The notes under the pieces: generated by a model
Seen by the model: only the letters and a program-made list of their open reading frames with translations
Database searches by the model: none
What the model was told of the DNA's origin: nothing
Shown here: piece by piece, positions 27,772 to 52,376 of the stretch
How positions within the stretch are numbered: the first letter of the stretch is position 1
How the letters are laid out: each line of letters starts with the position of its first letter
Assembly: GCA_947444925.1 (NCBI GenBank)
Contig: CANFBW010000017.1
Coordinates: 1 to 57,228, forward strand
DNA from: Flavobacteriales bacterium
GTDB taxonomy: Bacteria; Bacteroidota; Bacteroidia; Flavobacteriales_C; GCA-002722245
Length of the DNA stretch: 57,228 bases
Direction of reading: 5' to 3'
Translations under genes and position numbers: made by a program

Positions 27772-27803
27772 ATTTTATTTATAATTATCTCCCCCCTCAG
27801 AGG

Positions 27804-27835
27804 ACAATATACAACATTGAAAAAATTAGTGCAAA
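27804..27835 (-). promoter_or_regulatory. Possible GH44 promoter
   Basis: On the minus strand TTTG (27835-27832), 20 nt, then TATATTGT (27811-27804), a near match to the Bacteroidota promoter pattern, about 33 nt upstream of the GH44 ATG. Confidence 0.35.
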
Positions 27836-27927
27836 AAAATTTCAAAACACAGACTTAAAAGGGCAAAATTTATACATTTCATTTTTTTACCTTAACCTTG
27901 TTCAACATAGTCAATTATAAAGCAGAA

Positions 27928-28614
27928 ATGAAACTACAGTACCAACCTCCCATTGCATCAATCACCGTCGATTGCGTATTGTTTGGCTTTATTGAAGGGC
28001 AAGTGCACGTACTTTTAATCAAACGTGGATCAGAACCTGAAATAGGAAAATGGGCCTTACCCGGTGGTTTTATAGAACAGAAAGAAAGCATCACCGAAGC
28101 AGCAAGCAGGGTTTTAGAACTACTCACCGGCATAACAGGTGTTTATATGGAACAGTTCCACACTTTTGGAGAGACAGAACGCCATCCTTTGGCGCGCGTT
28201 GTAACAGTGGGTTATTACGCACTGATTGATGCTGCGCACCACAATCTAAAACCTTCTTGGCACGCCGAAGAAACAGCGTGGTTCGACATATCAAAAATGC
28301 CAAAACTGGCTTTCGACCACAAAGCAATTTTTCAATTAGCACTCAAAACACTGCAAAAAGAATTGAATATTTCGCCCATCATCTTTGAATTGCTGCCAAC
28401 CAAATTCACGCTTAGTGATTTGCAAAATGTGTTTGAAATTATTTTGGGTAGAACCATGGACCGACGTAATTTTCGCCGTCGATTAAAAACAATGGATATT
28501 TTAATTGAACTTGACGAAGTACGTCCTGGCGCACATGTTGGCGCTACACTCTTTAAATTCGACAAAAAGAAATACAAGACCTTACAAGCTGAAGGCTTCG
28601 ACTTTAGTTTATAA
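27928..28614 (+). CDS. NUDIX-fold transcriptional regulator (NrtR/AraR type)
   Basis: A 228-residue cytoplasmic regulator. Residues 1-140 are a NUDIX domain (VDCVLFGFIEGQVHVLLIKRG), but the NUDIX box reads GGFIEQKESITEAASRVLEL and lacks the R-E-x-x-E-E core, so it should bind rather than cleave its ligand. Residues 150-228 are a winged helix typical of this family (FTLSDLQNVFEIILGRTMDRRNFRRRL). In Bacteroidota such proteins repress sugar genes (for example AraR of Bacteroides) and respond to sugars or sugar phosphates. Its position beside GH44 suggests control of hemicellulose or galactose genes. I start at ATG 27928 because the residues after it are conserved in the family. Confidence 0.85.
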   Translation: MKLQYQPPIASITVDCVLFGFIEGQVHVLLIKRGSEPEIGKWALPGGFIEQKESITEAASRVLELLTGITGVYMEQFHTFGETERHPLARVVTVGYYALIDAAHHNLKPSWHAEETAWFDISKMPKLAFDHKAIFQLALKTLQKELNISPIIFELLPTKFTLSDLQNVFEIILGRTMDRRNFRRRLKTMDILIELDEVRPGAHVGATLFKFDKKKYKTLQAEGFDFSL

Positions 28615-28852: not shown

Positions 28853-31225
28853 TTATTGTTTGCATATTTTTGAAAATTGTTTTTGACCCTCTACTGTCAC
28901 CTCAACTAAGTAAATTCCAGCTTGCAAATACTCACCCATTACAATGTTTTCATTGGTAACATTTGTTGCTGATGCGTATACCAAATCACCTATTAAAGAA
29001 TACACTTTCAAATCAATTGTTGCATTTTTTGTGCTGTTGACCTTTATGGTAATCGTTTCATTGAATGGATTGGGATACACTGTGGCACTGCTTGCTGAGT
29101 GAACAAAATCGTCAACACCTGTCACAACAGAAGTCACTGTTTTTGACAAACGAATGTTGTCAAGTCGAATATTTCCTGCAGCTGTGCTGCCTCCATCAAC
29201 AGCAAAACGCAACAATTTTATTTGCGACAAATTGACTCCAGAAAAAGCCGATACCGCAACTTTAGTACTCACATAGTTTGGTGTCAAGGTTAAAAGCACT
29301 GTATTGGATTTCACGTCACCAACCGCAACCAAATTTACGCTCAGCACAGCACCCGGTGTCGCTGGTCCTTTGTACGATAGTTCCAAGCTGTCGAAAGCTG
29401 AAAAATCCATCGCATTTACATCTAACCAATTGCAAATATTAAAATTCACGTCGTCGTATTTTGTTTTGTAATCAAAGGAATAATCTTTCACCCCTTCAAT
29501 GGCACCAAGGTTCAATTGCTCTGCAAGAGTTCCAGTTGTCCAATAACAGCCAACGCAAATCCGCGTGAATGCATCCGTATAGATATCACTATAAGTAAAG
29601 CCTGCTTTGATCAACAAACTTATATTTTGAGTCTTGGTATTTCCAAGATTATCTGTCACTGTGGCAACAATAACTTTTGTACCTGTTGACGTGAATGCAG
29701 GCAATACATAATTTAAGGTGAAATGATGCGCATCGCCACTAGTCATCGCCAGCGCTGCGCCACCCCCAATTGCACTCAAATCCAACTTAACCCCTGACAC
29801 CGATCCATCGTCACTCGCTTGCAAATCAAAAGTCAATTGTTGATCTGAAGTGTTCTCTACCGTAGCAGGATTTACTGTTGCAGCGCTAACAACAATACCT
29901 CCGCTCACTTCAAGATGTAAAGTGTAAGTAAGAGTGTGGGCAGCGTCATCGGTCACTGAAAGTAAAATGGTTTTATCTCCCGAAACCACTCCTGCCGCCA
30001 CATTAAAAGTATAGTCGTAATTGCTGTTACCTAACGTATTCATTGATACTGCGCTGCCCCCGCCAATAGCCGTTAAGTTTAATTTCATTTGCGAAACCAC
30101 ATGCGGCAATGCAGCAATGGCTGTGCTCGTAAAATGCACGTTGGTCGCCACGTTGTTGTATACTACTATTGGAGTCAGTGCTGCACTTATAGAAATTCCG
30201 GCACTGGCTTTCAACGTAATTGCTCCACCGTCAGGAACAGCGCGAAACATAATGGTATCATTGAAAACTGAATCAATCTGCAATGCTTTGTTGTTTTGAA
30301 ATACTTCATCATAATTGACTCCATTCATTTTCAATTGCAAGCTGAGCTCTTGATTGTATAAGGAATTGTTGTACAAAGTATCCGTTAAATTCACCACCCA
30401 CTGTAAACCATTCGGAGCTGCAAGTTCCGTGAGTGAGGCGCATTTTCTTTCTCTGTGATATTTCAGTGCTTTTTCAAATGTTGTGATCCACACTTTGCTT
30501 TTATAAGAAGATAAAGCATCTAGCTGAGTCGAAAACTCAGAAACAGTAAGTGCGGAATATGTAGCGTCGGCAATGGTTGGACTACTCACACTGTGATACA
30601 TGTATGTTAGTAATCCGCCGCCTGCAATAACATTATTTATTTCGGCACTGAAAGCATTCAGCGATAAAGCCGAGCTAACAGTGGTCGTTGTTACTTTATA
30701 ATAATCGTCTAAACTACTCACGAAGTCGTAAGAATAGTGCCCTGTTGATGGCGCAACTTCACGTGCACCTATATATCCATTGGCGCGCAAAAAAGCGAAC
30801 GACGCCGAACTAAATTGTCCGAGAGGATAAGCGAAAGTACAAACCTTTGTTCCCGGAACATTTGATTCAATGGCTGCTTTAGCGCCATTAATTGCACTTG
30901 CATTCGGACTCGCTTGTCCGCTATGATCCGTAGTATGGTTAGATATTTCATTGCCATTGGCAGCAGTAATTAATACTGTACTCCAATTGTTCGCCACCCA
31001 CGATTCTCCTAAAAAATTGGTAATGAGAAAAAATGTTGCAGGAATATTTCTCTTTTTCAATTCGGGAACAGCCAATGGATATTGACCCGCTGTCCAGTCG
31101 TCAAAGGTGAGCACCACCGCGCATTTCTTGTTATTTTCCCAATTGCAAATCTTACCCACTTGCGCATAACCCTGCTGCGCAAAAAAGAAAACAGAAAGCA
31201 GTAAAGTAAATAAAATACGATTCAT
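28853..31225 (-). CDS. Multidomain polysaccharide deacetylase (CE4-type), T9SS cargo
   Basis: A 790-residue secreted protein. Signal peptide 1-21; then a NodB-like deacetylase domain (about 25-260) with the metal/base motif VLTFDDW (Asp42, Asp43) and the metal-binding His97 and His101 in NHTTDH. Next is a 75-residue domain shared with its two paralogs (ends FRAVPDGGAITL), two Ig-like modules (DLSAIGG..M pattern), a jelly-roll module (YSDIYTD ... DNIRLSK) resembling a carbohydrate-binding domain and a type A T9SS sorting domain (VYPNPFNETITI). It should remove acetyl groups from a polysaccharide outside the cell. It lies 28 bp after a paralog, in one operon. Confidence 0.88.
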   Translation of the reverse strand: MNRILFTLLLSVFFFAQQGYAQVGKICNWENNKKCAVVLTFDDWTAGQYPLAVPELKKRNIPATFFLITNFLGESWVANNWSTVLITAANGNEISNHTTDHSGQASPNASAINGAKAAIESNVPGTKVCTFAYPLGQFSSASFAFLRANGYIGAREVAPSTGHYSYDFVSSLDDYYKVTTTTVSSALSLNAFSAEINNVIAGGGLLTYMYHSVSSPTIADATYSALTVSEFSTQLDALSSYKSKVWITTFEKALKYHRERKCASLTELAAPNGLQWVVNLTDTLYNNSLYNQELSLQLKMNGVNYDEVFQNNKALQIDSVFNDTIMFRAVPDGGAITLKASAGISISAALTPIVVYNNVATNVHFTSTAIAALPHVVSQMKLNLTAIGGGSAVSMNTLGNSNYDYTFNVAAGVVSGDKTILLSVTDDAAHTLTYTLHLEVSGGIVVSAATVNPATVENTSDQQLTFDLQASDDGSVSGVKLDLSAIGGGAALAMTSGDAHHFTLNYVLPAFTSTGTKVIVATVTDNLGNTKTQNISLLIKAGFTYSDIYTDAFTRICVGCYWTTGTLAEQLNLGAIEGVKDYSFDYKTKYDDVNFNICNWLDVNAMDFSAFDSLELSYKGPATPGAVLSVNLVAVGDVKSNTVLLTLTPNYVSTKVAVSAFSGVNLSQIKLLRFAVDGGSTAAGNIRLDNIRLSKTVTSVVTGVDDFVHSASSATVYPNPFNETITIKVNSTKNATIDLKVYSLIGDLVYASATNVTNENIVMGEYLQAGIYLVEVTVEGQKQFSKICKQ

Positions 31226-31253: not shown

Positions 31254-33296
31254 CTAGTTCTTACAAATTTTAATCACTTGATGTTGTCCACTCACTGTAC
31301 TGTCCACAAAATAAATTCCAGGAGCAAAGTCTTTTCCGAAAGTAATATTTTGGTTGGTGTAGAGCTGTGCTGATGTATACACTACATCTCCTAACATATT
31401 GACAACATTTACCGCCGCCATTTTGTTTTCATCAGAAGAAATAATGAAAGTTACTTCGTTTGCGAAAGGGTTTGGAAAAACACTTGCTGTGTTCGCTATA
31501 GTTTTGAATACTTGAACATCAGTAGTGATGGAAGCGGTTTTTATCAATCTAATATTATCAATTTTCAGTGTTCCTGCACCACTCGCTGCTCCAGTAATGT
31601 CAATAGCAATTTCAGTTACTTTAGTTAAATCAAAAACCCCAAATTCCGAGAGACCAATTTTAGCAGTAGTATACGCCGCCGACAGGGGTAACGATTTCGA
31701 AGTTGACTTTTTTGAAGCAGTACCGATCAACGACACAGCGATACCAGTACCGGCAGATGCAGGACCTTTATATGAAATTTGTAAACTATCATAATCCGAA
31801 AAATCTTTAGCACCACTATCAGCCCAACCGCATATATCTAAACCAGCGCCAGCCCAATAGCTAGAAATTGTATAAGCAAAAACATAGTCCTTCGTGCCTT
31901 CGCTTGCACCACTATTGCTTTGCTCCGTCACTCCGCCCCAAGTACCATTCACCATGGATGATGCATCCGTGTAAATATCCAAGTAAGTAAAACTTGGCAA
32001 TACAGTGAGGGTAATATCGGTGGTGTTGGTTTCGGGACTATTGTCAACCACTGTCACTGTAACAGTTTTTGAACCAGCAGAAATTCCTGCTGCAATAGTA
32101 TAACTGTATTCGTATTTATTGTTCCCCAAAGAAGTCATGTTCACTGCACTTCCACCGCCCACTGAACTTAAGTTGATCTTTACCGAAGTAACGGTAATGC
32201 TTTTAGTAGAAACCACCTCAACCGCAAATTTCACCAAAGTTGCTGCTGTGTTTACAAACGAAGAAGGTGTTGCCGAACCCACCACTGATGTTCCTGAACT
32301 GAGCGACAAAGTAATGTCTCCACCATCAGGAACCGCGCGAAAAGTAATGGTATCATTGACTTTTGAATCAATAGTCAATGTATTTCCATTTTGCATGATC
32401 TTGTCGTAATTCACACCATTCATTTTCATTTTAAGGGTCAATGGATAATCGTAAACAGCATTGTTATATAGTGTATCACTTAATTTCACTATCCATTTAA
32501 TTCCGTCGGGCGCTTGAACCTGCGTCAGAGATGCGCAGTTTTTTTCTCTGTGGTATTTCACGGCATTACTAAAAGTGGTCACCCATACAGCACTTTCATA
32601 AGATTGCAGTGCCGTTAATTGGGCTTGAAGATTTGTTTGTGAAACAGGTTCGTAGTTGTTGTCGACAACCGACTGACTGTTTACACTATGATACAAGTAA
32701 GTCAATAAGCCACCTCCATTAATCACGTTTTGAAGTTGCGTGGTAAACGCAGGTGTAGTGGTTGCCGTGTATACGCTAAATGAAGGGTAATTGTAGTAAT
32801 CAGAAATACTGTAAGAATACTGTCCTCCCCCAGGAGCACCAACACCACGCGCCGCAATGCAGCCCGAAGATTTTAGCAAAGGCAGCACTCCTGCATCAAC
32901 TGTTCCAAAGGGATAGGCAAAAGTAGTCACCTTTTGAGAAGTTACATTGCTTTCAATTACTGTTTTAGCAGCAGCAACTTCAGTGCTGAAATTTGATGTG
33001 TTCACGGCAACGTGTGTTTTTGTGTGGTTGCCAATTTCATTTCCATTTGTTGCAGCAGTCGACACATTTGCCCAAGAACCAATATTACCTGAATTCACAT
33101 AAAATGTAGCTACAAGGTTTCTTGTTTTTAATTCAGGAACAACTATCGCGTTGTGGCCCGCTGACCAGTCGTCGAAAGTCATCACTACCGCCGCCTTTTT
33201 ATTGCCTTCCCAATTGCAAATTTTTCCAACTTGAGCTTGCGCTAAAAATGCGAAACTCAACAAAAACAGAAACAGAATGCTTTGTAGATTTTTCAT
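31254..33296 (-). CDS. Multidomain polysaccharide deacetylase (CE4-type), T9SS cargo
   Basis: A 680-residue secreted paralog of the downstream deacetylase, with one Ig-like module instead of two. Signal peptide 1-22; NodB-like domain with VMTFDDW (Asp42, Asp43) and NHTKTH (His91, His95); the TFAYPFG motif at about 130; the shared post-catalytic domain ending FRAVPDGGDITL; one Ig-like module (INLSSVGGGSAVNM); the jelly-roll module YLDIYTDASS ... DNIRLIK; and a T9SS domain (VFPNPFANEVTFII). It is first in its operon and its promoter carries the shared TGATCAA operator described below. Confidence 0.88.
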   Translation of the reverse strand: MKNLQSILFLFLLSFAFLAQAQVGKICNWEGNKKAAVVMTFDDWSAGHNAIVVPELKTRNLVATFYVNSGNIGSWANVSTAATNGNEIGNHTKTHVAVNTSNFSTEVAAAKTVIESNVTSQKVTTFAYPFGTVDAGVLPLLKSSGCIAARGVGAPGGGQYSYSISDYYNYPSFSVYTATTTPAFTTQLQNVINGGGLLTYLYHSVNSQSVVDNNYEPVSQTNLQAQLTALQSYESAVWVTTFSNAVKYHREKNCASLTQVQAPDGIKWIVKLSDTLYNNAVYDYPLTLKMKMNGVNYDKIMQNGNTLTIDSKVNDTITFRAVPDGGDITLSLSSGTSVVGSATPSSFVNTAATLVKFAVEVVSTKSITVTSVKINLSSVGGGSAVNMTSLGNNKYEYSYTIAAGISAGSKTVTVTVVDNSPETNTTDITLTVLPSFTYLDIYTDASSMVNGTWGGVTEQSNSGASEGTKDYVFAYTISSYWAGAGLDICGWADSGAKDFSDYDSLQISYKGPASAGTGIAVSLIGTASKKSTSKSLPLSAAYTTAKIGLSEFGVFDLTKVTEIAIDITGAASGAGTLKIDNIRLIKTASITTDVQVFKTIANTASVFPNPFANEVTFIISSDENKMAAVNVVNMLGDVVYTSAQLYTNQNITFGKDFAPGIYFVDSTVSGQHQVIKICKN

Positions 33297-33337: not shown

Positions 33338-33396
33338 GTAAATGTAGGGAATACACCACGGCGATATGAACGGTATACGACTGAATTGATCATTCG
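33338..33396 (-). promoter_or_regulatory. Activator-type promoter, site A
   Basis: On the minus strand CGAATGATCAA (33396-33386), 39 nt, then the -7 box TACATTTA (33346-33339). No -33 TTTG is present at the usual place. The same block with the same 39-nt spacing occurs before two other genes in this cluster, so it is probably an activator site. The box ends about 42 nt upstream of the deacetylase ATG. Confidence 0.65.
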
Positions 33397-33497
33397 ATAC
33401 ATCAATCGTAAATACCTAAAAGACAAAGTGTTACATTACAAATTGATACATCCGCACAGCCAACACCCAACGCAGTTTGAAGGCCATCTCATTTGTA

Positions 33498-36400
33498 TCA
33501 ATGAATAACACTCAAGTGACTGATGCGTTGCATCAAATTCTTTGAGCCATCGGTTTTGCTTTGCGCATAATTCACTTTTACAACATACACATCCTGTTGC
33601 ACAAGAGCACCATGGTACTTGCCATCCCAACCTTCTTGAATGTCAGTGCTGGAATAGAGCAATTCGCCCCAGCGGTCGAAAATCAGCATTTGAAAATCCA
33701 TCACGTTTTCCCCCACGGCGTAAAACACTTCATTTTTATTGTCGCCATTCGGGGTGAAAGTATTCGGCAAGTAAAAAGAAGTGTTGCAAAAATCATAAAA
33801 AGTCACTTCGTCTTTTGAGCTGCAGTCGCCCTTGCTCAGTGTTACACTATAAATGCCTGCAGTCGCCACAGAAATAGCACTCGTTTTTTCGTTGGTGCTC
33901 CATAGATAAGAATACTTTACGCCATCAAGCGGATCTGCCGACAATACCTGTGGCCCCTCTTCAACAAAACAATAAATTGATTTTTGCGGCAGAAAAAGAT
34001 TGTGCAGTACATTTTGAGGCATTGCGCTTTCTTTCACATACACACCGTCGGTGTCAGCACAAGTTCCATTGTGCAAAATAACTTGATACCATCCTTCAAC
34101 AGACACCGAGATACTTTGTGAAAAATTGTTTTTCACATTCCATTCATAGCTTGTCCCCAAGGGCGCTGCACCTGCATCAAGCATCAATACTGCTCCTTCG
34201 CATATGTAGCTTGTATCAAGACCATTCAATAAATTCACAGAAGGCTTAGTGCGGAAATTTGCAAGCAAACTGTCGCGCCCCTCGCAGCCTTGCAAATTGG
34301 TGGCAATCAAAAAATACAAGCCCGACTGATCTACAGTAAGTGTTGCACCTGCAGTGGCTTTGTTCCACAAAAGTGTCCAACTTGGATCTACATTTTGTGC
34401 ACTGAGCACAACGCTAGGTCCGGCGCAGGTGTCAATGTCTTTTCCAATATTCAATACCGGTGCTGCCAAAGCATTCAGTACTATGGTATCTTTAGCAACG
34501 CAGCCATTGGCGTCAATTGCAACAACGCTATATTCGCCAGGACCTTTTAACAAGGTTTGACTGCTGTCCAAACCCGACCACAAATACTTTGTAAAACCAC
34601 TTCCTGCATCAAGTGTGACAGTACTTTGAGGACAAATACTTTGATCTACGCCTAAGTCCACTTTTGTTTTCGGATACCAAGCCAAGAGCATAGAATCACT
34701 GCCTTTACAACCATTGCCATCGTCAACCACCACTCCATATATCCCCGCGGCGGCAACTTTAATGCTTTGCGTGTTCGCACCAGTATTCCAAAGCATGGTA
34801 TAATTGAATTGATCATACCCACTATTGAGCAACAAACTATCACCTTCGCAAATACTTTTGTTATTGAGTGTTAATGTCAAGTTGTTTTTCACCGCAACAT
34901 AAACACTGTCTTTGGCTGTACATCCTTTACTATCGGTGCTTTGCACTCTATAGTAACCCGCTGTAGAGGCATTGAATGTTGCCGCAGTACCCGAAGCCGA
35001 TCCACTCCACAAATACGAATACAAAGGCGTTCCGCCACTGAGCAAAGGCGACAGAACAATGTTTTTACCCGGACAGATTGAAAGCGTATCGGCACCAAAA
35101 TCAATGCTGGTTTTGGCCAAAGTCCAAACAACAATAGTATCAGTTGCAGTACAAGCACCACCATTGTCAACGTTAACAATGTATTGTCCCGCAGCACTAA
35201 TTATTTTAGTAGAAGCATTGCCACCACCCGACCACGAGTAATTTAAAAATCCACTTCCAGCGTTGAGCTCCAAAACTGCTCCAGCACAAATAGCGGTATC
35301 CTTGCCTAAATTTACTTTCAACGCACTCACAAAGCTAATAGTGGCAGTGCCAGTACCCAACGTATCGCAAGTAGAACTGAACACCGAATCAACCTTATAT
35401 GTGCCCATATTTTTTGCGTAGAAAGAGTAGCTATTGGCTGAAATATTGGCCACCGTCCACTTTGTCAAACCATTACTCAACTTCAATTTAAAAGGCATTT
35501 CACCAGTGAGCGCAACCGTGAACAAGGCACTATCACCAGCACAAATAGCTTTAGATCCTGTGATTACTGCCTTAGGCGTTACGCAGGGAGCATTGCATGT
35601 AAAAGGCACCAATACGGTGTCGCTCAGTGTACACTGCGGATTAGCGACACTTGTAGCAACAACCGTATAAGTAGTTGGAATGTTTCCTGCTACCTGCGCG
35701 CTGGGCCCCACAGCAGCACCAGGATTCCAAGCATAAGTATATGACCCCGGCGTGTAGGCGCAATTCACCAAATAATCAAAAGCAACAACATTGGTATATT
35801 GCTCTACTGAATTGGCGGGCACCCGAACACGAAGTACCTCCACGCCTTGCGGATTCACTATCCAAGCATCAACTGCAAAAGGATTTTTATTATAGGGCAC
35901 AGTTCCCAAACACGATCCTGAAGCCACTTGCGTTTCTACTTCAAACTTTATTTTTTCGCCCGAACACAATTTGAAAGTGGTTTTGGTAGGCGCTAAATAA
36001 TTTTTCGCCCTGTCTTTTCGCAAACGAAAACCTTGTCCATTAGAAGGTGTAATGATCACAAAGGTCACGTCACCCCAAGCGCCATTGGGCGTATCAAAAT
36101 ACACGCTCCATTCACACTCGCAATTGTCTTGCGCCAAGCCTGTTTTCAATTGTGCATCACACTTGGTAATACTCAAAATATCGGCCGTTAATTTTTCATT
36201 TACGGCAGTGACGTAACCTACTTCCGCCGATAAATTGAATTTACACGAAGGATTGCCCTTGTCTTGAATAACAATGTTGTAGGCGCCATTGGGAACATCT
36301 GCCAAAGTAATGGAAGAACTTGTTCCACTTACCGTATTTCCAAATGTTGAACATTGATAGCTCACGGTATAATTAGAAGTACCACTAATATTTAAATTTA

Positions 36401-38024
36401 TTTTACCGCCGTGCATGTTCTGACAAGGAGTGTTAACGGTTGTTGCACTCGCCACGATACTGCACGTATTACAGTTGTTAACCACTATTGTTTTAGGACA
36501 ACATGCAGGAAAACATCCTCCAAAATCAGGGGCTGGATTACATACCTTTAGCGTATACACAAACTGACCAACAACCGATGAACTAAGCACCAACTGCTTG
36601 GTATTTCCACCAACAGGCACGCCATCTTTGTACCATGAATAAGTCACAGCAGGACCATCACCGCCATCAATCACTCCTTCTAAAATAATGGCCTGTCCTT
36701 TACAAATCGTGTCGTTGTTGTTTAAGTTTTCAATATGAGAAGCAGGCGCCAATTTACCAATCGGCTTGCGTTCTCCATTGTTGTAGGCTGGTAAACTCGC
36801 ATTGAATACGGTGGACATTACGGGGTTTTCTTTGGGCAAATTCAAAATAATCTCATCAATCACAGGCCCCAATTGTTTAAAAGGAATGGCCGCACCACCA
36901 CCCAATTTATCAAATACTTTTTTTACGTTTTGCGTAATCACTGCCCATTGTGCCAGAGAAAATTCTGAATAAAAATAATTGATCGTTGTTAAGTATTCTT
37001 GCACAATGGCCCATGTGATATCGGCATTGTAATAGCCATAAAAAACATGATTTTGCTGCGGACCGGGAACACTGGTCACCACTGGATTGGTCCATTGATA
37101 ATAACTCGAAGTTGTGTTTTGTTCTAAGGCATTGATACCCCAGCCTGTGATCTCAGGATAGCGATCAGAATTTGAAGTCAGATTCCAATTGTCAGAAGCG
37201 ATTGCCGCAGCTCTACCTGCCGGAGTGTACAAGTTAAATCCTTGTCCGTTGCCCGCAAAACCCGATACATTTTGTTGCACGCCACCTGCCCAGTCGTTCC
37301 ACCCTGAGGCGATTAATTTTTCGTACGCATTGGGATCCTTCGTAGCGTCGATGATAGGCCATATATCAATTCCCCAAGCTGCATCTAGCAAAGAATGGTT
37401 TTCAATACTTCGGTAGGCAAAGCCCAAGGCAGAAATTTCAAAGTGACTACCAGGAATGGAACCCGCAAAACGACCAGGTTTAAATCGCCAAGGCCAAGTT
37501 TGACTCAAGTCGCCGCACCATGCCAATTCCAACATTTGATAACAACCTTCATTTGCAAAGCCACCTTTGTTGCCGCACCATTCATTGTGAAAAAAATCAG
37601 GATGAGCTGGACCTTTCAAAACAGTGTTCTACGGAATACGGTCGGCAGGCCATTCGGCTCCAAAATCGCAACCCCACCCTGTTTCTTCTGCAGGAATCAC
37701 CATCCACAGCGCTATTTTAGGATGATCGACCCGCTGAATAATATTTCTATTGTAGTTCCAAGCATGTGCAATGGCCAAAGCCCACGTTGGCCGATTGGTA
37801 GGAATACTAATATTCATTGGCCTTTCCTCACTCATACCATCAACTCCTCCTTGAGGCAATTGTATTTCACCTTTGGGATAGGCCGTTTTTATGAAGCAAT
37901 TTTTATCAAAAAAACCGTAGGAAGGCATTGCCGGGGTATCAAACAAAACTGGACCTTGCGCTGTGCTGTTTTCTAAAATAGAAAATAACGCAAGTGCTAA
38001 AAGTATGCTATGAAGTTTTTTCAC
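33498..38024 (-). pseudogene. Large T9SS type-B protein interrupted by in-frame TAG
   Basis: An open frame of 1508 codons broken once by TAG at 37629-37631 (codon 132). The start is GTG at 38024, giving the signal peptide VKKLHSILLALALFSILENSTAQ and fitting the promoter just upstream. Residues 25-450 form an unrecognised domain, with PAEETGWGCD just before the stop and EWCGNKGGFANEGCYQMLELAWCGD just after, a pattern that recalls lysozyme-like or other glycan-cleaving folds but is not diagnostic. The rest is a long series of Ig-like beta domains (CAG, SICPG and DAGSGF motifs). The end is a gliding-motility-type C-terminal domain (FYLPNTFTPNGDNKNEVF), the type B T9SS signal. The second part could start at a TTG but would lack export, so the allele looks non-functional unless the stop is an error or is read through. 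Confidence 0.75.
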
Positions 38025-38051
38025 AAGGTGTGCTTTAGGTTGCTTTCCCAC

Positions 38052-38110
38052 TAAAAATAGACGAGATACCAACCAATAACAAAGCACAGTAGACTGAATT
38101 GATCATTTCG
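38052..38110 (-). promoter_or_regulatory. Activator-type promoter, site B
   Basis: On the minus strand CGAAATGATCAA (38110-38099), 39 nt, then TATTTTTA (38059-38052), a TAnnTTTG box with one mismatch. TTCAGTC directly after the core is identical to site A. The box lies 27 nt upstream of the GTG start at 38024. Confidence 0.6.
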
Positions 38111-38115
38111 CACAC

Positions 38116-40551
38116 TTAATCCATCTTCACCACCTTCACCGCTCCGAGTGCAGCACCAGTGCCGTCAAACAATTGAAAGCTGTAAACCCCAACACTGAAA
38201 TCACGCATTGAAAACTTAAAACGGTTTTCTCCAACAATACCAAATATCAATGCCTTGTAAACTTGATCACCTCCTATATTGAAAGCCTTCAAATAATAGG
38301 CGCCTCCCTGTTCCGAGTTAAACTCAAAGCTCACACCATCGCTGCTTGGATTTGGATACATCAACAAATCACTTGCAGACGCTTTATCAAAACTCAGTTC
38401 CACAATTTTTGAGACTTGATGCGCACCATCGAAATCAAATTCGCTCAATTGATAATAGTTCACACCCGACAAGGGTGCCGAGTCGTCGAACCTGTATTTT
38501 AATATCTTAGCACTATTCCCGGCAGCTTTCATCTTCGCAATGGTCTCCCAGCGCATGTCGGTTCCAGCCCGACGCAATTCAAAATAATCGCTATTGATTT
38601 CAGAAGCTGTAGCCCAAGAAATTATAGTACTGGACGCATCTTTTTCAGCACTAAAAGAAAGCAATTCAACAGGCAACGTTGCCGTTGGCACCACCTCACC
38701 AGTAACCGCTGCCAAGGTTTGAGTTGATGTGTAATTTGTGGTATTTGAAGTTCTGTGAAAAAACACTTTTACCAATTGCGCCGCTGTTAGATCTACAGCA
38801 ACGTTATTTCCAGTGCCTATTTTAAGCTTCGGATCTGATCCACCAGCCAAAGTACCATTGTAACCGCCCAACCAATCGCGCACACTCAAGTTTCCTCCCG
38901 ACCAAGTAATGCCGGCACTTGCAGCAAAAGTCAAAGTATGATTTCCAGTGCTTAAATATAAAACAGAATACTTGTCTACTTTCATTGTACCCACCGTTTC
39001 ATCGTAAGGCGCTGAGAGTGAACCTCCATTAAAAACAATTTGAGTACTATTGTCTAAAGTATTTGAAACACCCAAAGTCAAAGTACCAGCAGTAAGCGTG
39101 GTAGAGCCAGTCCAAGTATTTCCAGCTCTTCCTAAATTGAAATTTCCTGTTCCTAATTTCACAAAGGAACCTCCTGTGTAGCTTGCAACGTTAGTTTGAC
39201 CGTCATTCGCTCCGCCACTAGTAATGGATGCATTTCCATCATTAACTGTAATAACACCGCCTGTTCCGGTACCACCACCTGCTCCCGCTGCGCAAGAAAC
39301 GGTATGTTGTGTTTTAACTCCAGTTGGTCCGGTGAAAGAAATGGCACCACCGTTAGCTGTGCTTGTCCCCAAACAAGTACCACCATCGGCAGTAATTGGT
39401 TGAGTAACACTTAATGTAGTAGCGGCAATTAAACTAATAGCTCCACCAGCACCACCACTTCTATTACCAGCAGTTACTCCGCAAGCACCACCTGTTGATG
39501 TTAATGTATGCGTTACGCTAGCAGATCCTGCAGTAGCTGTAAAAGAAATGGCACCACCTGTTCCTCCATTTCCAGTTCCACTACCAGCTCCTCATGCACT
39601 GTTTGACGCAACAGAATTATAATCAATGTTTGTTGCTGCAAGGAAAGTAATGCTACCTCCTGCGCCTCCATTACCGCTGCTTCCTACGCCACCTGTGGAG
39701 GTACAAGCGCGCGAATTGGTAATGGTGGTAGATGTAGCTGTAAGTGAAATATTGCCACCAGCTCCACCAACAGGACCTCCAGTAGAAGCACCCCCAGTTG
39801 AAACCAAATCTCCGGTTGTAACTGAAATACTTGTGCCAGAAAAAGTAATTGCACCTCCAGCGCCTCCCGAACTTGATGCACCATTAGAGGAGCCGCCGTT
39901 GGCTCCAGTGGCAGTAATATTATGAGCACTACTGATTGCCCCACCAGAAGAAGTGAACGTAATTGCTCCAGCCAGTCCACCCACCGCATTTCCTGTAGAA
40001 GCACCTCCTGTAGTTGCTATTGGCTGCGAAGTAGTAACCCCTGTTGCACCACTAAAAACCACATTTGTTCCAGGATATCCTGTTGAAGCATTGGAGGCAG
40101 GAGTTAAAGTTATGCCCTGACTAATTGTTATTGAGCCAGCAGCGGTGATAGTAAAAGTCCGCTGAGTTGCACTGGTTGTTGCTGCCGTGATAGATTGCGA
40201 CATAGTCACATTTCCAGTTTGATTTCCTGACGAAGCAGTGAGTAAAGTAACACTTCCTGCTCCATTGGTAGATGAGTTAAGTGCACTGCTGCCACCAAGC
40301 GCCGTATTACTACCTAACAGGCAAGCTACGATATCAGTGCTAATGACAGTGGAGCTATTGGCTTTAGGCGTCCATGTATATACACCTGCTGAATAAGTCC
40401 ACGCCCCATTCGCCGCTGCATTGCTGATCACCAAATCCGAATTTCCTGCAAACAAAGAAGAGTTCACTGCAAAGGCAAAAAACGCACAAAGCAAAAACGA
40501 TGCATTCGTTAATGTACTTTTATTCAAAAAAATAACAGTTGGTTTTTCCAT
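38116..40551 (-). pseudogene. Glycine-rich beta-repeat T9SS protein interrupted by in-frame TGA
   Basis: An open frame of 811 codons broken once by TGA at 39592-39594 (codon 320). The N-terminus has a signal-like hydrophobic stretch (about residues 15-35). Residues 60-480 are imperfect Gly-rich repeats of the type GGAGGAISFT with Thr/Ser/Ala, likely a right-handed beta-helix. A segment near residue 500 (FNLGRAGNTWTGSTTLTAG) is the autotransporter-associated beta-strand repeat. Then follow a common Bacteroidota module (LPVELLSFSAEKD) and a type A T9SS domain (LLMYPNPSSDGVSFEF). The frame is intact on both sides of the TGA inside a repeat unit, so a single substitution or sequencing error would explain it. 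Probably an adhesin or surface-structure protein. Confidence 0.72.
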
Positions 40552-40628
40552 AAGCCTCTTTACACAAATATTGTTTTCTCATTGCGCTACAATAAAATTT
40601 CAAGTAAAAACATTTGCAATGTAATGAT

Positions 40629-40660
40629 TTTTGATACACAAGAATAAAATTGTATCAAAA
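40629..40660. repeat. Perfect 10-bp inverted repeat
   Basis: TTTTGATACA and TGTATCAAAA around a 12-nt loop, between the deacetylase stop and the Gly-rich gene start. AT-rich arms make it a weak terminator; it might also be an operator for the Gly-rich gene. Confidence 0.4.
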
Positions 40661-40675
40661 TATACAACAACAAAA

Positions 40676-41995
40676 TCACTTAAGCAGCGCAAACTTTTGC
40701 ACCCGTACCGTTTCCCCACTGCTCGCTCTCACAACATACATACCTGCACTCAAAGAAGATACATCCATGCGCACCGCACTCAGCACTGTTTCGTTTTTCA
40801 AGACAAGCACTTCTTGTCCCGAAAGGTCTAAAATTGAAATGTTCGCATTCAACAACGGCTTAAGCGTTTGAATCGTTAGCAGTGATGATGAAGCATCTTG
40901 AAACACACGAATACCTGCGTTATCAGCTACCCCAGGCTCGAAACCCAATGAACCAATTGTCAACACAATCTCTCCCGCATCAGGCACCGCGCGAAACACA
41001 ATAGAATCATGCACCACACCGTCAATCACCAAAGGAAGTCCATTTTGAGTGGCCGTGCTGTAGTTTATTCCATTTCTAAAAATTTTCAAAGACAAGGGTT
41101 GATTGTACAAATCATTGTTTGACAAGGTATCGCTCAAGGTAAAACTCATCGTTGTGCCTGTTGTTCCCGTTTGTGTCAATTGCGCACAATTGCGTTCTTT
41201 GTGATATTTAACGGCCTGTCCAAAAGTAGTGATCCACACCTGATCTTTCAGTGTTACCAAGTGATCCAACTGAGCTTGCAATGCTGTTTGTTTTACCTGA
41301 CAGTACCAAGTATCGCTATAACTGTTGTTGGCATTGTCGATGCTGTGGTACAACACCGTGAGCAAACCACCACCGTTTTTAATTTGAGTTACCTGTCCTT
41401 TGAAATTATCAAGCGTTGTTCCACTGCACATTGGATAGGTCATGATTTTAAAATAATCATCATCGGTAGTTGCGAAATTGTAACCATAATTTCCTACACT
41501 CACTCCACGCGCAGCAATGTGGCCGCTGGCTTTCAGTGAATCTCTAATTTCAATGTCCTTTGATGTATTTCCTGATCCTTCACCAAATGGATATGCAAAA
41601 CTGGTTGCTTTTTGGTTGAGCACATGCCCATCAATAATTGCTCTCGCCGCCCTAATTTCAGTATTCAGCTGCGTTGCATTTTGCGTGAGCAAATGCGGAT
41701 GACTCTTAGTGTGGTTGCCAATCTCATTGCCATCTGCTGCGGTTGTCAACACTGTTGGCCAATCGTGGTTCCAATTTGCAACAAGTGATGTTTCAATAAA
41801 AAAAGTAGCATTTAAATTTCTGCTTTTGAGCTCTCCCGGAACGATGGGTTGTTGACCTGGACTCCAATCATCAAAGGTGAGTACAATTGCAGCTTGCCGG
41901 TCGCTGTCCCACTTGCAAATTTCGCCAACTTGAGCTACAAGCATTTGCATCCCGCAAAATACCGCCAATAAAATACAGATTGTTGATTTTTTCAT
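40676..41995 (-). CDS. Polysaccharide deacetylase (CE4-type), T9SS cargo
   Basis: A 439-residue secreted protein, the shortest of the three paralogs. I start at ATG 41995, which gives a signal peptide (MKKSTICILLAVFCGMQMLVAQ) and lies just downstream of a good promoter. The NodB-like domain has VLTFDDW (Asp42, Asp43), NHTKSHPHL (His95, His99) and TSFAYPFGEGSG. The shared domain ending FRAVPDAGEIVL follows, then directly a T9SS domain (ISILDLSGQEVLVL ... GMYVVRAS). It lacks the Ig-like and jelly-roll modules of its paralogs. It should deacetylate an extracellular polysaccharide. Confidence 0.87.
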   Translation of the reverse strand: MKKSTICILLAVFCGMQMLVAQVGEICKWDSDRQAAIVLTFDDWSPGQQPIVPGELKSRNLNATFFIETSLVANWNHDWPTVLTTAADGNEIGNHTKSHPHLLTQNATQLNTEIRAARAIIDGHVLNQKATSFAYPFGEGSGNTSKDIEIRDSLKASGHIAARGVSVGNYGYNFATTDDDYFKIMTYPMCSGTTLDNFKGQVTQIKNGGGLLTVLYHSIDNANNSYSDTWYCQVKQTALQAQLDHLVTLKDQVWITTFGQAVKYHKERNCAQLTQTGTTGTTMSFTLSDTLSNNDLYNQPLSLKIFRNGINYSTATQNGLPLVIDGVVHDSIVFRAVPDAGEIVLTIGSLGFEPGVADNAGIRVFQDASSSLLTIQTLKPLLNANISILDLSGQEVLVLKNETVLSAVRMDVSSLSAGMYVVRASSGETVRVQKFALLK

Positions 41996-42029
41996 AAATT
42001 CCCGTTTAATGAATTGTGTTTGTATATCA

Positions 42030-42087
42030 CAAATATACGATGCTAAAAAAGTGCTATATTGAAAACAAAGTGCCGTTTGATCATTCG
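42030..42087 (-). promoter_or_regulatory. Activator-type promoter, site C
   Basis: On the minus strand CGAATGATCAA (42087-42077), 39 nt, then TATATTTG (42037-42030), a perfect TAnnTTTG box, 34 nt upstream of the deacetylase ATG. It lies downstream of the TPR-AraC regulator gene, the best local candidate to bind it. Confidence 0.7.
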
Positions 42088-42136
42088 ACACAAAATAACA
42101 ACTATCTAAAAAACAAGTACTTGAAATAAAAATTGA

Positions 42137-43816
42137 TCAATCAGCACTTTGAATCTCCTGCTCTTTCATTTCAATAAACAACGATGGCGTTAAACCTGTC
42201 GTTTTTTTAAATACATGATTGAAAGTCGATTTTGAATTAAAGCCTACCCTCACGGCAATCGCCTCAATGGTAAATACTTTGTTCGCCGGGTCCAACAACA
42301 TATTTTGAGCCTCTCGTACGCGGTACTCGTTAATTAAGTTACTAAAACTATTGTTGAAATGGTCGTTGAGTACTTGTGACAAATACGTGCGGTTGCTATT
42401 CATTTGTTTTGCCAACGTATCAAGACTGAGGTCACTTTGCAAATACACTTTCTGTTCGTTCATCAACCGATTGAAATCTTGCAGCAATGCCTCTTGTTTT
42501 TCATCTCTGAGCGTAGAGCCAACGTACTTTGTTTGTATTTTAATTTCAAGCAATTCTTCTTTGTTTTTCTTGAGTTCGATACCACTGGCGAATAAGTGTT
42601 GATACGACTCTTTCAACCGTCTGTTTTTAAGTACAATCAGCACGAACAATACCAAAAAAACCACCACCACCGCTACCGCCGCCACGATCAAAATATTTTG
42701 TTTGTGAATCAACTCCTCTTGCGCTACTTTGTCTTTGCGCAACAGCTCCAATTCATATTCGCGTTGAATCACCAAGGCATTTTTTGAACGCTCCTGATCT
42801 TGCAGCAAGATGTATTTGCGTTGAGTTTCCAAAACTTTTGCGGTGCTTCCAACAACATTATAATAACCCGTCAATTTTTTGAGAAAGACTTGTTGTTGAA
42901 ATACAATTTCATTGCTATCGGCAACCGACAAAGCCATTTCTGAAAATTTAATTGCTTCGTTTATATTGCCAGAAGCCGCGTAAGCGTCACCAATTTTATC
43001 AAGCACCGCTGCGATGTTCAACTTATCGTTGATTTGATGGTAGCAATTCAAAGCCTTATGATAATACTCCAATCCAACTTCCAATGTACCTTGCCCCAAC
43101 GCCATCAAGCCCAATCCTTTGTAGGCACGCGCCATTCCGTCCTTGTTGTTCGTTCGAACACAAAGATCTGTCAGTTCCGAAAAAATCCGTTCAGCAGCCA
43201 GCAACTCTTTTTTCAGCGCATAGGTCTCCCCTAAATAGGCCAAAGCAATCGCTTGCTGCTTGCTGTCGTTAATCTGCAAACTGATGGATTGTGCCTTTTC
43301 AAAGTATGGAATTGCTTGCTCGTAAGCCTTATTATTTTGATACAATTCACCCTTACAATAATTACAAACCACAACACCCACCAAGTCATTGCTACTGCTA
43401 AAAACCTTTTCCGCCTTTGCATAATAATCGAGGGCTGCTTTGTCGTTGTTTTTTTGATCTCGATAAAGATTCGCAATGTCAAGCAAAACCCAGCCATTCA
43501 AATAGGCATCTCCTATCTTTTCAGCAATAGACAAGGCCGACAAGTAGTTGGTCAGTGCCAAATCATACATTCCCAAACGGCGGTAAACGTAGCCTTTGTG
43601 AAAAAGCACCAGTCCGATTTTACTTTGTTCATTTAATTCATGTGCAATATCCTGCGCCTTTTTCAAATGACTGAGCGCTAAAATCGGATCGCCTTCTCTG
43701 CTTTGGAAATACGACTTAATTGAATTGTCAAAAACAGCAGCACTACCCGCCTCTCGCGCATTAGCAGCAAAAGCCAAAAGCAATACTGCACAAAGCACCA
43801 CCAATTGTTTCTTCAT
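42137..43816 (-). CDS. TPR-AraC hybrid membrane regulator
   Basis: A 559-residue regulator. From ATG 43816 it has a signal peptide (MKKQLVVLCAVLLLAFAANA), a periplasmic region of about six TPR repeats (residues 30-330), one membrane segment (about 375-400, IVAAVAVVVVFLVLFVLIVL) and a cytoplasmic AraC-type helix-turn-helix domain (about 450-550; GFNSKSTFNHVFKKTTGLTPSLF). This layout is common in Bacteroidota and senses envelope signals to control nearby genes. It ends 142 bp upstream of the deacetylase gene that carries operator site C. Confidence 0.9.
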   Translation of the reverse strand: MKKQLVVLCAVLLLAFAANAREAGSAAVFDNSIKSYFQSREGDPILALSHLKKAQDIAHELNEQSKIGLVLFHKGYVYRRLGMYDLALTNYLSALSIAEKIGDAYLNGWVLLDIANLYRDQKNNDKAALDYYAKAEKVFSSSNDLVGVVVCNYCKGELYQNNKAYEQAIPYFEKAQSISLQINDSKQQAIALAYLGETYALKKELLAAERIFSELTDLCVRTNNKDGMARAYKGLGLMALGQGTLEVGLEYYHKALNCYHQINDKLNIAAVLDKIGDAYAASGNINEAIKFSEMALSVADSNEIVFQQQVFLKKLTGYYNVVGSTAKVLETQRKYILLQDQERSKNALVIQREYELELLRKDKVAQEELIHKQNILIVAAVAVVVVFLVLFVLIVLKNRRLKESYQHLFASGIELKKNKEELLEIKIQTKYVGSTLRDEKQEALLQDFNRLMNEQKVYLQSDLSLDTLAKQMNSNRTYLSQVLNDHFNNSFSNLINEYRVREAQNMLLDPANKVFTIEAIAVRVGFNSKSTFNHVFKKTTGLTPSLFIEMKEQEIQSAD

Positions 43817-43874
43817 TGTCTTCAAGATGTATTTTATAAAACTCATCTATTTTGTACAATAAAACAATTCAGCC

Positions 43875-48802: not shown

Positions 48803-49909
48803 CTACCAGCCCATTGCGCTTTTTATAACAGGACTCAATTGCTCGGCAATGGAAGATTGCGTCACCTTAGTTGGGTGCCAGTCTTCACCATAAGGCGCTT
48901 GCTGTGCGCTCAACTCAAAACTCAACACCTTGCCATCATTGGCAAAGTACGTTTGCACCGCTGCCATATCTTTTTTCCAGCGCGACAGCCAATGCTTTCC
49001 TACAGGATATCCGTCGGTCACTGATCCGCCATAAACCATCAGTATTGTTGAATGCGCATGAAAACTGCGCAATTTTTCTACAAAGGATATATAAGCTGAA
49101 ACATAAGCCATTGAATCCATCACTACACCACCAACCTCTTTAGCAAAGTCATTTGTTCCCAAAAACACCAACAGCAAATCAGCGCTGTTCGATTTTGGAT
49201 TCCACACCTCATTCTTTTGATCGGGATATAACTGTGTGTACAATTCTGGCAACACCCCTTTTGTTGATCCCTCATAATTTGTATACATGCCCCTACCTGA
49301 ATAAGCGGTACACATGTATTGCGTATTGAATTGGCGCGAAAGAAGTGCTCCATAAGCAGCGTAGTTATCTTCATTTTCAGCGTGAAATCCAGGACAACAA
49401 TTTGGGTTAGGATAAGACATTTCATTGCCATAACCACATGACCAAGAGTCGCCAATGATTTCAATTTTCCTCTCTGGCAAGGCATCAGGCAACAAGGCTT
49501 TGCCCTTAAAAACAAAGCCTCCAAAAGTGCTTGTACCTACCATCGCTTCAGTACGTTTAAAAAGCACTACGCTGTGCACTGAGTCAGTCAGATTTGAAGC
49601 CAAAACGTAAACAGTGTCGCTGCGATTGAGTTTCAAAACACCGACTTTACCATCAATGAGCACTGCAAAATAATTACTACTGGCCGCGTGATCCGTTAGT
49701 ATTGCAGACACCTTAGTACCCTTAAATTTAAATTTAACCGAAGTTCCCGGCCAAATAAAAACGGGCGCATATTCGTTTTTAAAATCAATGCGTCCTTGAT
49801 ATTGCAATTTACTATCGTTGGCTTCAATTTTTGATTGACCACTCAAGTCAAAGCCTATGAGTAAGATCAGAAAAACTAAAGTGTGTTGAATAGAGGCTAC
49901 TACTTTCAT
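48803..49909 (-). CDS. CE2-family acetylesterase
   Basis: A 368-residue exported esterase of carbohydrate esterase family 2. Signal peptide 1-24. Residues 30-140 form the CE2 N-terminal jelly roll (YQGRIDF ... WPGTSVKFKFKG). Residues 145-365 are the SGNH hydrolase: Ser155 in IIGDSWSCGYGNE, GTNDF at 251-255, and Asp343/His345 in GEDWHPT. CE2 enzymes remove acetyl groups from xylan, glucomannan or cellobiose units. It has no T9SS domain or lipobox, so it is probably periplasmic and acts on imported oligosaccharides. It heads an operon with the gene at 46694. Confidence 0.9.
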   Translation of the reverse strand: MKVVASIQHTLVFLILLIGFDLSGQSKIEANDSKLQYQGRIDFKNEYAPVFIWPGTSVKFKFKGTKVSAILTDHAASSNYFAVLIDGKVGVLKLNRSDTVYVLASNLTDSVHSVVLFKRTEAMVGTSTFGGFVFKGKALLPDALPERKIEIIGDSWSCGYGNEMSYPNPNCCPGFHAENEDNYAAYGALLSRQFNTQYMCTAYSGRGMYTNYEGSTKGVLPELYTQLYPDQKNEVWNPKSNSADLLLVFLGTNDFAKEVGGVVMDSMAYVSAYISFVEKLRSFHAHSTILMVYGGSVTDGYPVGKHWLSRWKKDMAAVQTYFANDGKVLSFELSAQQAPYGEDWHPTKVTQSSIAEQLSPVIKSAMGW

Positions 49910-50054
49910 AAGTATATAAATATACGTGCAAGATATAACCGCGATAGCACTGACACTAAGCGATTTTTAAATTTCACTTTGCAGATCTATATTTCCACTT
50001 TGCTCTTTTCTAAAAAGACTTTGCATTTTCCTGAAACACCTAATCCTGTAGTCA

Positions 50055-51158
50055 TCACTTAAACTCGCCTGGAGACTTATTGACCAAGTCCTTAAACACT
50101 CTATTGAAACTAGAAGGTGAATTGAAACCGCATTTGTACGCAATTTCTGAAATCGAATAACTTGAATTTTTGATATACAATTTCGCTGCTTCTACTCTTG
50201 TGTGATTCAAAAAAGCTTTAAAACTCATTCCGGTATTTTCTTTCAAAAGATCACTAATTCTATAATCAGGCACTTTCAAATAGGCTGCCAAATCGGCCGA
50301 CTTCAAATCGCTGTTGCCATAATGTTCGGCTATATAATGGCGAATGAGGGCATTGAAGTTTTTGTCGCCATCATTTCCCAATTCAAAATCCTCCTTGTAT
50401 TGTACAGTCAATTGTATGCGCTTATTTTTTTGGTAGCGGTAAAACTGAAAAATCACAAACAACGAAACCACACAAAAACACAACACCAGAATTTGCATTG
50501 CCAAAGCGGAGTAATCACCCACTAAGCGCAGTTCTTTTATACTAAAATTGCGGCGCTCGCCAACGGACGAGGCAGGATCACTGAAAAACGAAAAATGCTT
50601 CACATTGCGTAAATCTGTGCCACGCACTTCACTTTCTTTCAACTTATTTAGGGTATACCACCATTCAGGCGTAATCGTGAAATCATTGAAAGCCAATTCC
50701 AAGCTATTATCTCCCTTTTCTAAACCATAGTTGTTCTGGTACAATCTAAAAGAATTGGTGTTTTTAATGTCACTCAAACCTTCTTGAAAATTAAAAATAC
50801 GCAATGGCAAACGCTCTGCTTTATCAGTGCTAAGCAGTACTTGCAACTTGTAATCTTCTAAATTAAAGAAACTCGCATCTTTCTTTCGCACCAAAACGCC
50901 GGCATAAGGATATTCTTTTTTATTTTTGAGCACGTAACTGTACTCAATCTCGCTGATCGTTTTTTTAGAAATCGCACATTGTGAATTTCCACTCTCCCAC
51001 TGGTCAGAAAAAGCTTCCACCACAAATTCATCAGAAGTCATCAGATTTACCTCCGATTTTCGATGCAACAAAAAAAGCAGCACAATGCTCAAGCCCATCA
51101 CAGACAGAGACAACAACAAATGCCTACGAAACTCCTTGCTAGCAAAAAACTCTTTCAA
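50055..51158 (-). CDS. Membrane-bound AraC-family regulator
   Basis: A 367-residue protein with two membrane segments (about 14-32 and 212-234) that bracket a beta-rich extracytoplasmic sensor region, and an AraC-type DNA-binding domain at residues 262-367 (SISEIAYKCGFNSPSSFNRVFKDLVNKSPGEF). It is a one-component membrane regulator. The ligand is unknown. It lies between the CE2 operon and galE, so it may control either. Confidence 0.85.
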   Translation of the reverse strand: MKEFFASKEFRRHLLLSLSVMGLSIVLLFLLHRKSEVNLMTSDEFVVEAFSDQWESGNSQCAISKKTISEIEYSYVLKNKKEYPYAGVLVRKKDASFFNLEDYKLQVLLSTDKAERLPLRIFNFQEGLSDIKNTNSFRLYQNNYGLEKGDNSLELAFNDFTITPEWWYTLNKLKESEVRGTDLRNVKHFSFFSDPASSVGERRNFSIKELRLVGDYSALAMQILVLCFCVVSLFVIFQFYRYQKNKRIQLTVQYKEDFELGNDGDKNFNALIRHYIAEHYGNSDLKSADLAAYLKVPDYRISDLLKENTGMSFKAFLNHTRVEAAKLYIKNSSYSISEIAYKCGFNSPSSFNRVFKDLVNKSPGEFK

Positions 51159-52349: not shown

Positions 52350-52376
52350 TTAGTTGTGTCGTAATGACACAACTAA
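52350..52376. promoter_or_regulatory. Palindromic operator between galE and galT
   Basis: A perfect inverted repeat with 11-bp arms (TTAGTTGTGTC and GACACAACTAA) and a 5-nt spacer. On the galT side it overlaps a likely -7 box (TACTTTAG, 52346-52353) preceded about 20 nt earlier by CTTG (52322-52325). On the galE side it covers the -33 region. It could therefore repress both units. A dimeric sugar repressor such as the NUDIX-type protein at 27928 is a reasonable candidate. Confidence 0.8.

Follow-up and report, generated by a model that had tools for sequence, protein, structure and literature searches.

A shared upstream site at three promoters of T9SS-exported proteins in a Flavobacteriales bacterium, with a TPR-AraC protein as candidate activator

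Described regulators of polysaccharide genes and the present locus

Several described systems resemble the locus studied here. The carrageenan regulon of Zobellia galactanivorans with CgrA (ZGAL_3145-3159; PMC5698469) likewise has a local AraC-family gene and a polysaccharide-acting cluster without a SusCD pair. RNA-seq showed a complete catabolic pathway and distal SusCD genes for the Zobellia cluster (PMC5698469), whereas in the present locus a motif links exported proteins only.

The AraC-type HTCS of Bacteroides (PMC3878776, PMC11253607) are also single membrane proteins that pair a sensor in the periplasm with an AraC domain in the cytoplasm, and their sites likewise lie upstream of exported polysaccharide genes. 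However, these sites are predicted to be tandem direct repeats about 21 bp apart (PMC3878776), whereas a single dyad-symmetric core occurs here, and an HTCS-like direct repeat at 21 bp was searched for in these promoters and not found. The sensor of the TPR-AraC protein differs as well, since it consists of TPR; Pfam shows TPR and HTH only, and no histidine kinase or receiver domain. The present arrangement is thus unlike an HTCS in both protein and site, having neither kinase nor receiver and no tandem direct repeats.

SusR-like regulators are activators of polysaccharide genes and likewise one-piece membrane proteins, sensing in the periplasm and binding DNA in the cytoplasm, but they are built from domains other than those of TPR-AraC, and each of their predicted sites consists of two boxes separated by 67 or 77 bp (PMC3878776). 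BtAraR, of the NrtR family, has a semipalindromic site of about 21 bp, which resembles the core described below, and a relative is encoded in the cluster; its GTGT-N7-ACAC operator, on the other hand, is unlike the three sites, and the protein is a repressor released by arabinose (PMC4666351). In the literature searched, we came across no TPR-AraC regulator of Bacteroidetes with a described site, and the symmetric site reported here is unusual and could prove to be a variant.

The common site, its promoters and the genes behind them

The window, which is the whole stretch of 57,228 nucleotides analysed and the whole of contig C17, belongs to the genome (G000) of an uncultured Bacteroidetes, 3.24 Mb in 123 contigs. 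A preliminary description had reported CGAA(A)TGATCAA before three secreted-enzyme units. TGATCAA was indeed observed on the minus strand at 33386-33392, 38099-38105 and 42077-42083, before all three units, followed by exactly 39 nt and a TAnnTTT box (TACATTTA, TATTTTTA or TATATTTG) that lies 35 to 50 nt upstream of the start codon in all three genes. The CGAA-containing stretch is present, but CGAA is shifted and the common part is longer, namely a gapless 23-mer, TGTnnnnAATGATCAAnnnnnnC, which is followed by exactly 32 nt to the box. The sites, boxes and genes are as follows.

33379..33401, minus strand: core site 1, TGTATCGAATGATCAATTCAGTC, upstream of a two-gene deacetylase operon
33339..33346, minus strand: -7 box TACATTTA of the deacetylase operon, without a -33 box
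31254..33296, minus strand: polysaccharide deacetylase with T9SS type A tail, operon gene 1 (PF01522 1.1e-16, PF18962)
28853..31225, minus strand: second polysaccharide deacetylase with T9SS type A tail, 28 nt behind operon gene 1 (PF01522 3.1e-16, PF18962)
38092..38114, minus strand: core site 2, TGTGCGAAATGATCAATTCAGTC, upstream of the large type B protein gene
38052..38059, minus strand: -7 box TATTTTTA of the 38-kb promoter, with TTTG (-33) exactly 20 nt upstream
33498..38024, minus strand: large T9SS type B protein with Ig-like/PKD-like repeats and a GTG start (CHU_C 4.4e-12, TIGR04131)
42070..42092, minus strand: core site 3, TGTGTCGAATGATCAAACGGCAC, directly downstream of the TPR-AraC gene
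42030..42037, minus strand: -7 box TATATTTG of the third deacetylase, without a -33 box at the right distance
40676..41995, minus strand: third polysaccharide deacetylase with T9SS type A tail (PF01522 1.7e-18)

Every unit carries a T9SS sorting domain at the C-terminus (PF18962 in the three deacetylases, CHU_C/TIGR04131 in the large protein), and these tails on all four genes support the proposal of a co-regulated T9SS-exported set with an activator site upstream of the promoter. The label of secreted enzymes fits the two deacetylase units, but not the second unit, in which Pfam found no enzyme domain and whose 1508-codon type B gene has an in-frame TAG at codon 132 (37629-37631, minus strand). 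In our view the set is better described as two deacetylase units plus a protein of the surface or adhesin-like kind, which is perhaps broken in this assembly. The neighbouring 811-codon Gly/Ser/Thr-rich T9SS type A gene has an in-frame TGA at 39592-39594 (minus strand); each of these two T9SS genes contains one such stop and is otherwise open, which indicates either assembly errors or recent inactivation. The earlier proposal of a regulon without SusC/D agrees with the scanned window proteins, among which no SusC/SusD pair was found.

A fourth site was found in a congener, G003 (MAG JAPLEZ01, isolate LacPavin_0818_WC40_MAG_38_10), and the ungapped alignment of all four reads TGT RYSR AATGATCAA NNN RSW C, 32 nt separating the final C from the box. 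The view that the sequences between motif and box are largely unrelated is contradicted, for the stretch directly behind TGATCAA, by the 23-mer, which runs past TGATCAA, and by two sites that are identical over TGATCAATTCAGTC; the longest identity is between one deacetylase promoter and the promoter of the unrelated type B gene.

Concerning the promoters, TATATTTG matches the Bacteroidetes sigma-A -7 consensus TAnnTTTG exactly, TACATTTA and TATTTTTA have A for the final G, and the G003 box compared with the same consensus is TAATTTTG. A -33 TTTG at 19-21 nt upstream of the box is present at the 38-kb promoter only (20 nt) and absent from the other two window promoters and the G003 promoter, so that the reported lack of a -33 box holds for two of the three units. 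As Flavobacterium -7 boxes were mapped at -12 to -5 (PMC9723704), the core would lie at about -67 to -45, a position upstream of the promoter that supports the action of an activator.

The core is imperfectly dyad-symmetric around TGATCA; this symmetry was noticed after the fact. In the outer arms, 16 of 32 pairs match where about 8 would be expected, and all of the 257 other centres in these promoters stay below 16 matches. No second core copy on the same strand at a common offset was found. TCAATTT, at -52 to -54 in three of the four promoters, was considered as a second element and rejected, being out of register and partly coding.

The genome was scanned with exact patterns. TGATCAA-N39-TAnnTTT gave four matches in 3.24 Mb, namely the three window sites and one inside coding DNA, and thus no further promoter was found with the motif of the preliminary description at its spacing; all matches of CGAATGATCAA and CGAAATGATCAA outside the cluster also fall in coding DNA. 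When the spacer was varied from N24 to N54, TGATCAA-N-TAnnTTT had 90 genome matches and N39 was not enriched over other spacings; therefore, the heptamer and spacing alone prove little. In a control in which the real boxes were kept and the upstream DNA was dinucleotide-shuffled (1000 runs), any 7-mer was common to at least three promoters at a fixed spacing in 5 runs and a 9-mer in none, whereas three real promoters share AATGATCAA at N39. The strength of the case is in the promoter position, the longer core and the conservation in the congener, and on these grounds the earlier claim that the fixed spacing is selected stands, although the composite by itself is not enriched genome-wide. That a common selected site is real is much surer than the assignment of its regulator.

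A matrix scan of the window scored the three core sites at about 30 bits and the next non-overlapping match at 14.4. The same scan found no site near the core score for GH44, the 40551 gene, CE2, the T9SS proteins at 43875 and 46694, or TPR-AraC itself, and a wider regulon including these genes was accordingly rejected for the window. The GH44 promoter, conserved in three species, is its own and without the TGATCAA core. In three congeners, GH44 promoters (27772-27927 in the window) show a TGTATATTG or similar box, then GGGGG before the start.

Conservation among relatives and the candidate activator

In G003, the TPR-AraC gene is followed by TGTACGAAATGATCAATCTGCAC-N32-TAATTTTG, then a deacetylase gene, then GH44. 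A matrix built from the three window sites alone ranked the G003 site first in 19 kb (23.3 bits, next 14.2), and with the four-site matrix it was the best in 1.79 Mb of G003 (30.4 versus 18.8 bits). The third deacetylase has orthologues in two congeners, G003 (61% identical) and G002 (63%). The latter genome also has a GH44 orthologue, but neither the composite site nor TPR-AraC was found in it, and its deacetylase gene lies directly behind a subtilase gene, without a site.

Among 395 genomes of the class, the composite site occurs in G000 (3) and G003 (1) only; since the pattern was built from these four sites, the information lies in its absence elsewhere. TPR-AraC orthologues at E<1e-45 in the same 395 genomes are likewise confined to G000 and G003, and a search of GTDB genomes returned G003 only. 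The site and TPR-AraC thus co-occur in 2 of the 395 genomes, an argument that rests on two genomes. G003 also has a second TPR-AraC paralogue, which is divided between the ends of two contigs (L037, L042; C132, C66).

42137..43846, minus strand: candidate activator TPR-AraC (Pfam, hydropathy, AlphaFold2 model, G003 orthologue)

The protein comprises a signal/N-terminal helix, a TPR solenoid, one membrane helix (387-405) and a C-terminal AraC HTH_18, an AraC/XylS double helix-turn-helix (PF12833 3.8e-17, PF00165 9e-10). The AlphaFold2 model shows the TPR solenoid and a long helix, with low confidence in the AraC domain. From this layout we infer a probable topology, with a sensor in the periplasm that is anchored to a DNA-binding domain in the cytoplasm. 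Although the protein is 48% identical to its G003 orthologue overall, the HTH domain is 77.5% identical, the recognition helices 83-86% and the TPR part 43%, the pattern to be expected of a protein whose DNA site stays the same and whose signal varies.

Both site-bearing genomes have a site next to the TPR-AraC gene. Because of this adjacency, the co-occurrence and the HTH conservation, TPR-AraC is the best activator candidate, and we hold it with moderate confidence to be the protein that reads the three sites. The earlier proposal of an AraC-type activator, with TPR-AraC as the likeliest, gains from these three lines of evidence, whereas the single, dyad-symmetric core counts against it, a dyad being unusual for AraC proteins.

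In the mechanism that we propose, the three sites would be operators of one transcription activator, which would occupy 22-23 bp between about -67 and -45 and assist the housekeeping sigma factor in starting at three TAnnTTT promoters, two of them without a -33 box. The activator would most likely be TPR-AraC, acting as a membrane-spanning one-component regulator, its periplasmic TPR part sensing a signal and its cytoplasmic AraC domain binding the site. It would switch on a small local T9SS-exported set, namely the two deacetylase units, which together encode three polysaccharide deacetylases, and the large type B surface protein. It is possible, though doubtful, that the kinase-free, single-span TPR-AraC responds directly to a signal in the periplasm and turns on T9SS cargo genes via one dyad-symmetric site 32 nt upstream of the -7 box, a recognition mode undescribed for Bacteroidetes AraC proteins.

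Other possible readers of the site and biological meaning

The symmetric core is unlike the tandem repeats that AraC-type HTCS are predicted to read, and may thus belong to a symmetric dimer from a different regulator family. If a classical two-fold symmetric dimer of this sort, with its gene at some other place in the genome, binds the core, the TPR-AraC gene would be a mere neighbour; the dyad core and the absence of a direct repeat would suit such a regulator, and the comparison covered only part of the regulators of both genomes. We consider this reading unlikely, however, because in both genomes the site is next to the TPR-AraC gene, and among 395 genomes it is missing where the gene is missing.

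A semipalindrome-binding dimer is also encoded within the cluster.

27928-28614, plus strand: NUDIX-winged-HTH regulator of the NrtR/AraR kind, related to BtAraR (5bs6)

The dyad-symmetric core would suit such a dimer, a 79.6% identical orthologue adjoins the TPR-AraC gene in G003, and the closest solved relative is BtAraR (5bs6, E 3.6e-54), whose operator is a 21-bp semipalindrome (PMC4666351). Nevertheless, the base-contact stretch DKRNFRKR of BtAraR, whose operators are GTGT-N7-ACAC, is kept as DRRNFRRR in the NUDIX protein, whereas the three core sites have no ACAC half; in addition, AraR-type proteins are described as repressors, and the core lies instead upstream of the promoter. Within the window, GTGT-N7-ACAC occurs just once, in the divergent galE/galT promoter, where a perfect 27-bp palindrome, TTAGTTGTGTCGTAATGACACAACTAA, at 52350-52376 overlaps the end of a TACTTTAG box and is nearly unchanged upstream of galT in G003 (L079; TTAGTTGCGTCATTATGACACAACTAA). 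This palindrome fits a BtAraR-type operator, and since it is the only such match in the window and is conserved in G003, the NUDIX protein more likely governs the galactose genes, probably as their repressor. With its case as the core-site binder weakened in this way, we judge that role improbable.

Chance similarity, or a remnant of promoter duplication among paralogous deacetylases, is strongly disfavoured. Two units do encode paralogous deacetylases (45-48% identical) and the heptamer composite is not enriched genome-wide, but the 9-mer never arose in the shuffles, the longest identity joins a deacetylase promoter to that of an unrelated type B gene, and the core and spacing are kept in another species. 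The second AraC protein (50055-51158) is of the same family and is encoded at a distance of 8 kb within the secreted-enzyme region, but we hold it highly improbable that it reads the sites. G003 bears the site, yet its best match to this protein is 30% identical, at the level of paralogues in all congeners, and is thus no clear orthologue; moreover, the CE2 esterase beside the protein is without a site. The second AraC protein has a predicted periplasmic part between two membrane helices. The adjoining gene encodes a CE2-type acetyl esterase (48803-51158 in the window for both), and the two may possibly form a separate regulator-target pair.

The assignment of the three sites to TPR-AraC would provide a concrete DNA site and spacing for a candidate TPR-AraC regulator in Bacteroidetes. 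Otherwise, the set would be a small local regulon of a familiar sort. If the assignment is true, the expression of T9SS cargo would be linked to a membrane-spanning sensor in a cluster that, within the window, is without SusC/D, and TPR-AraC would be a membrane-tethered regulator of surface and secreted proteins.
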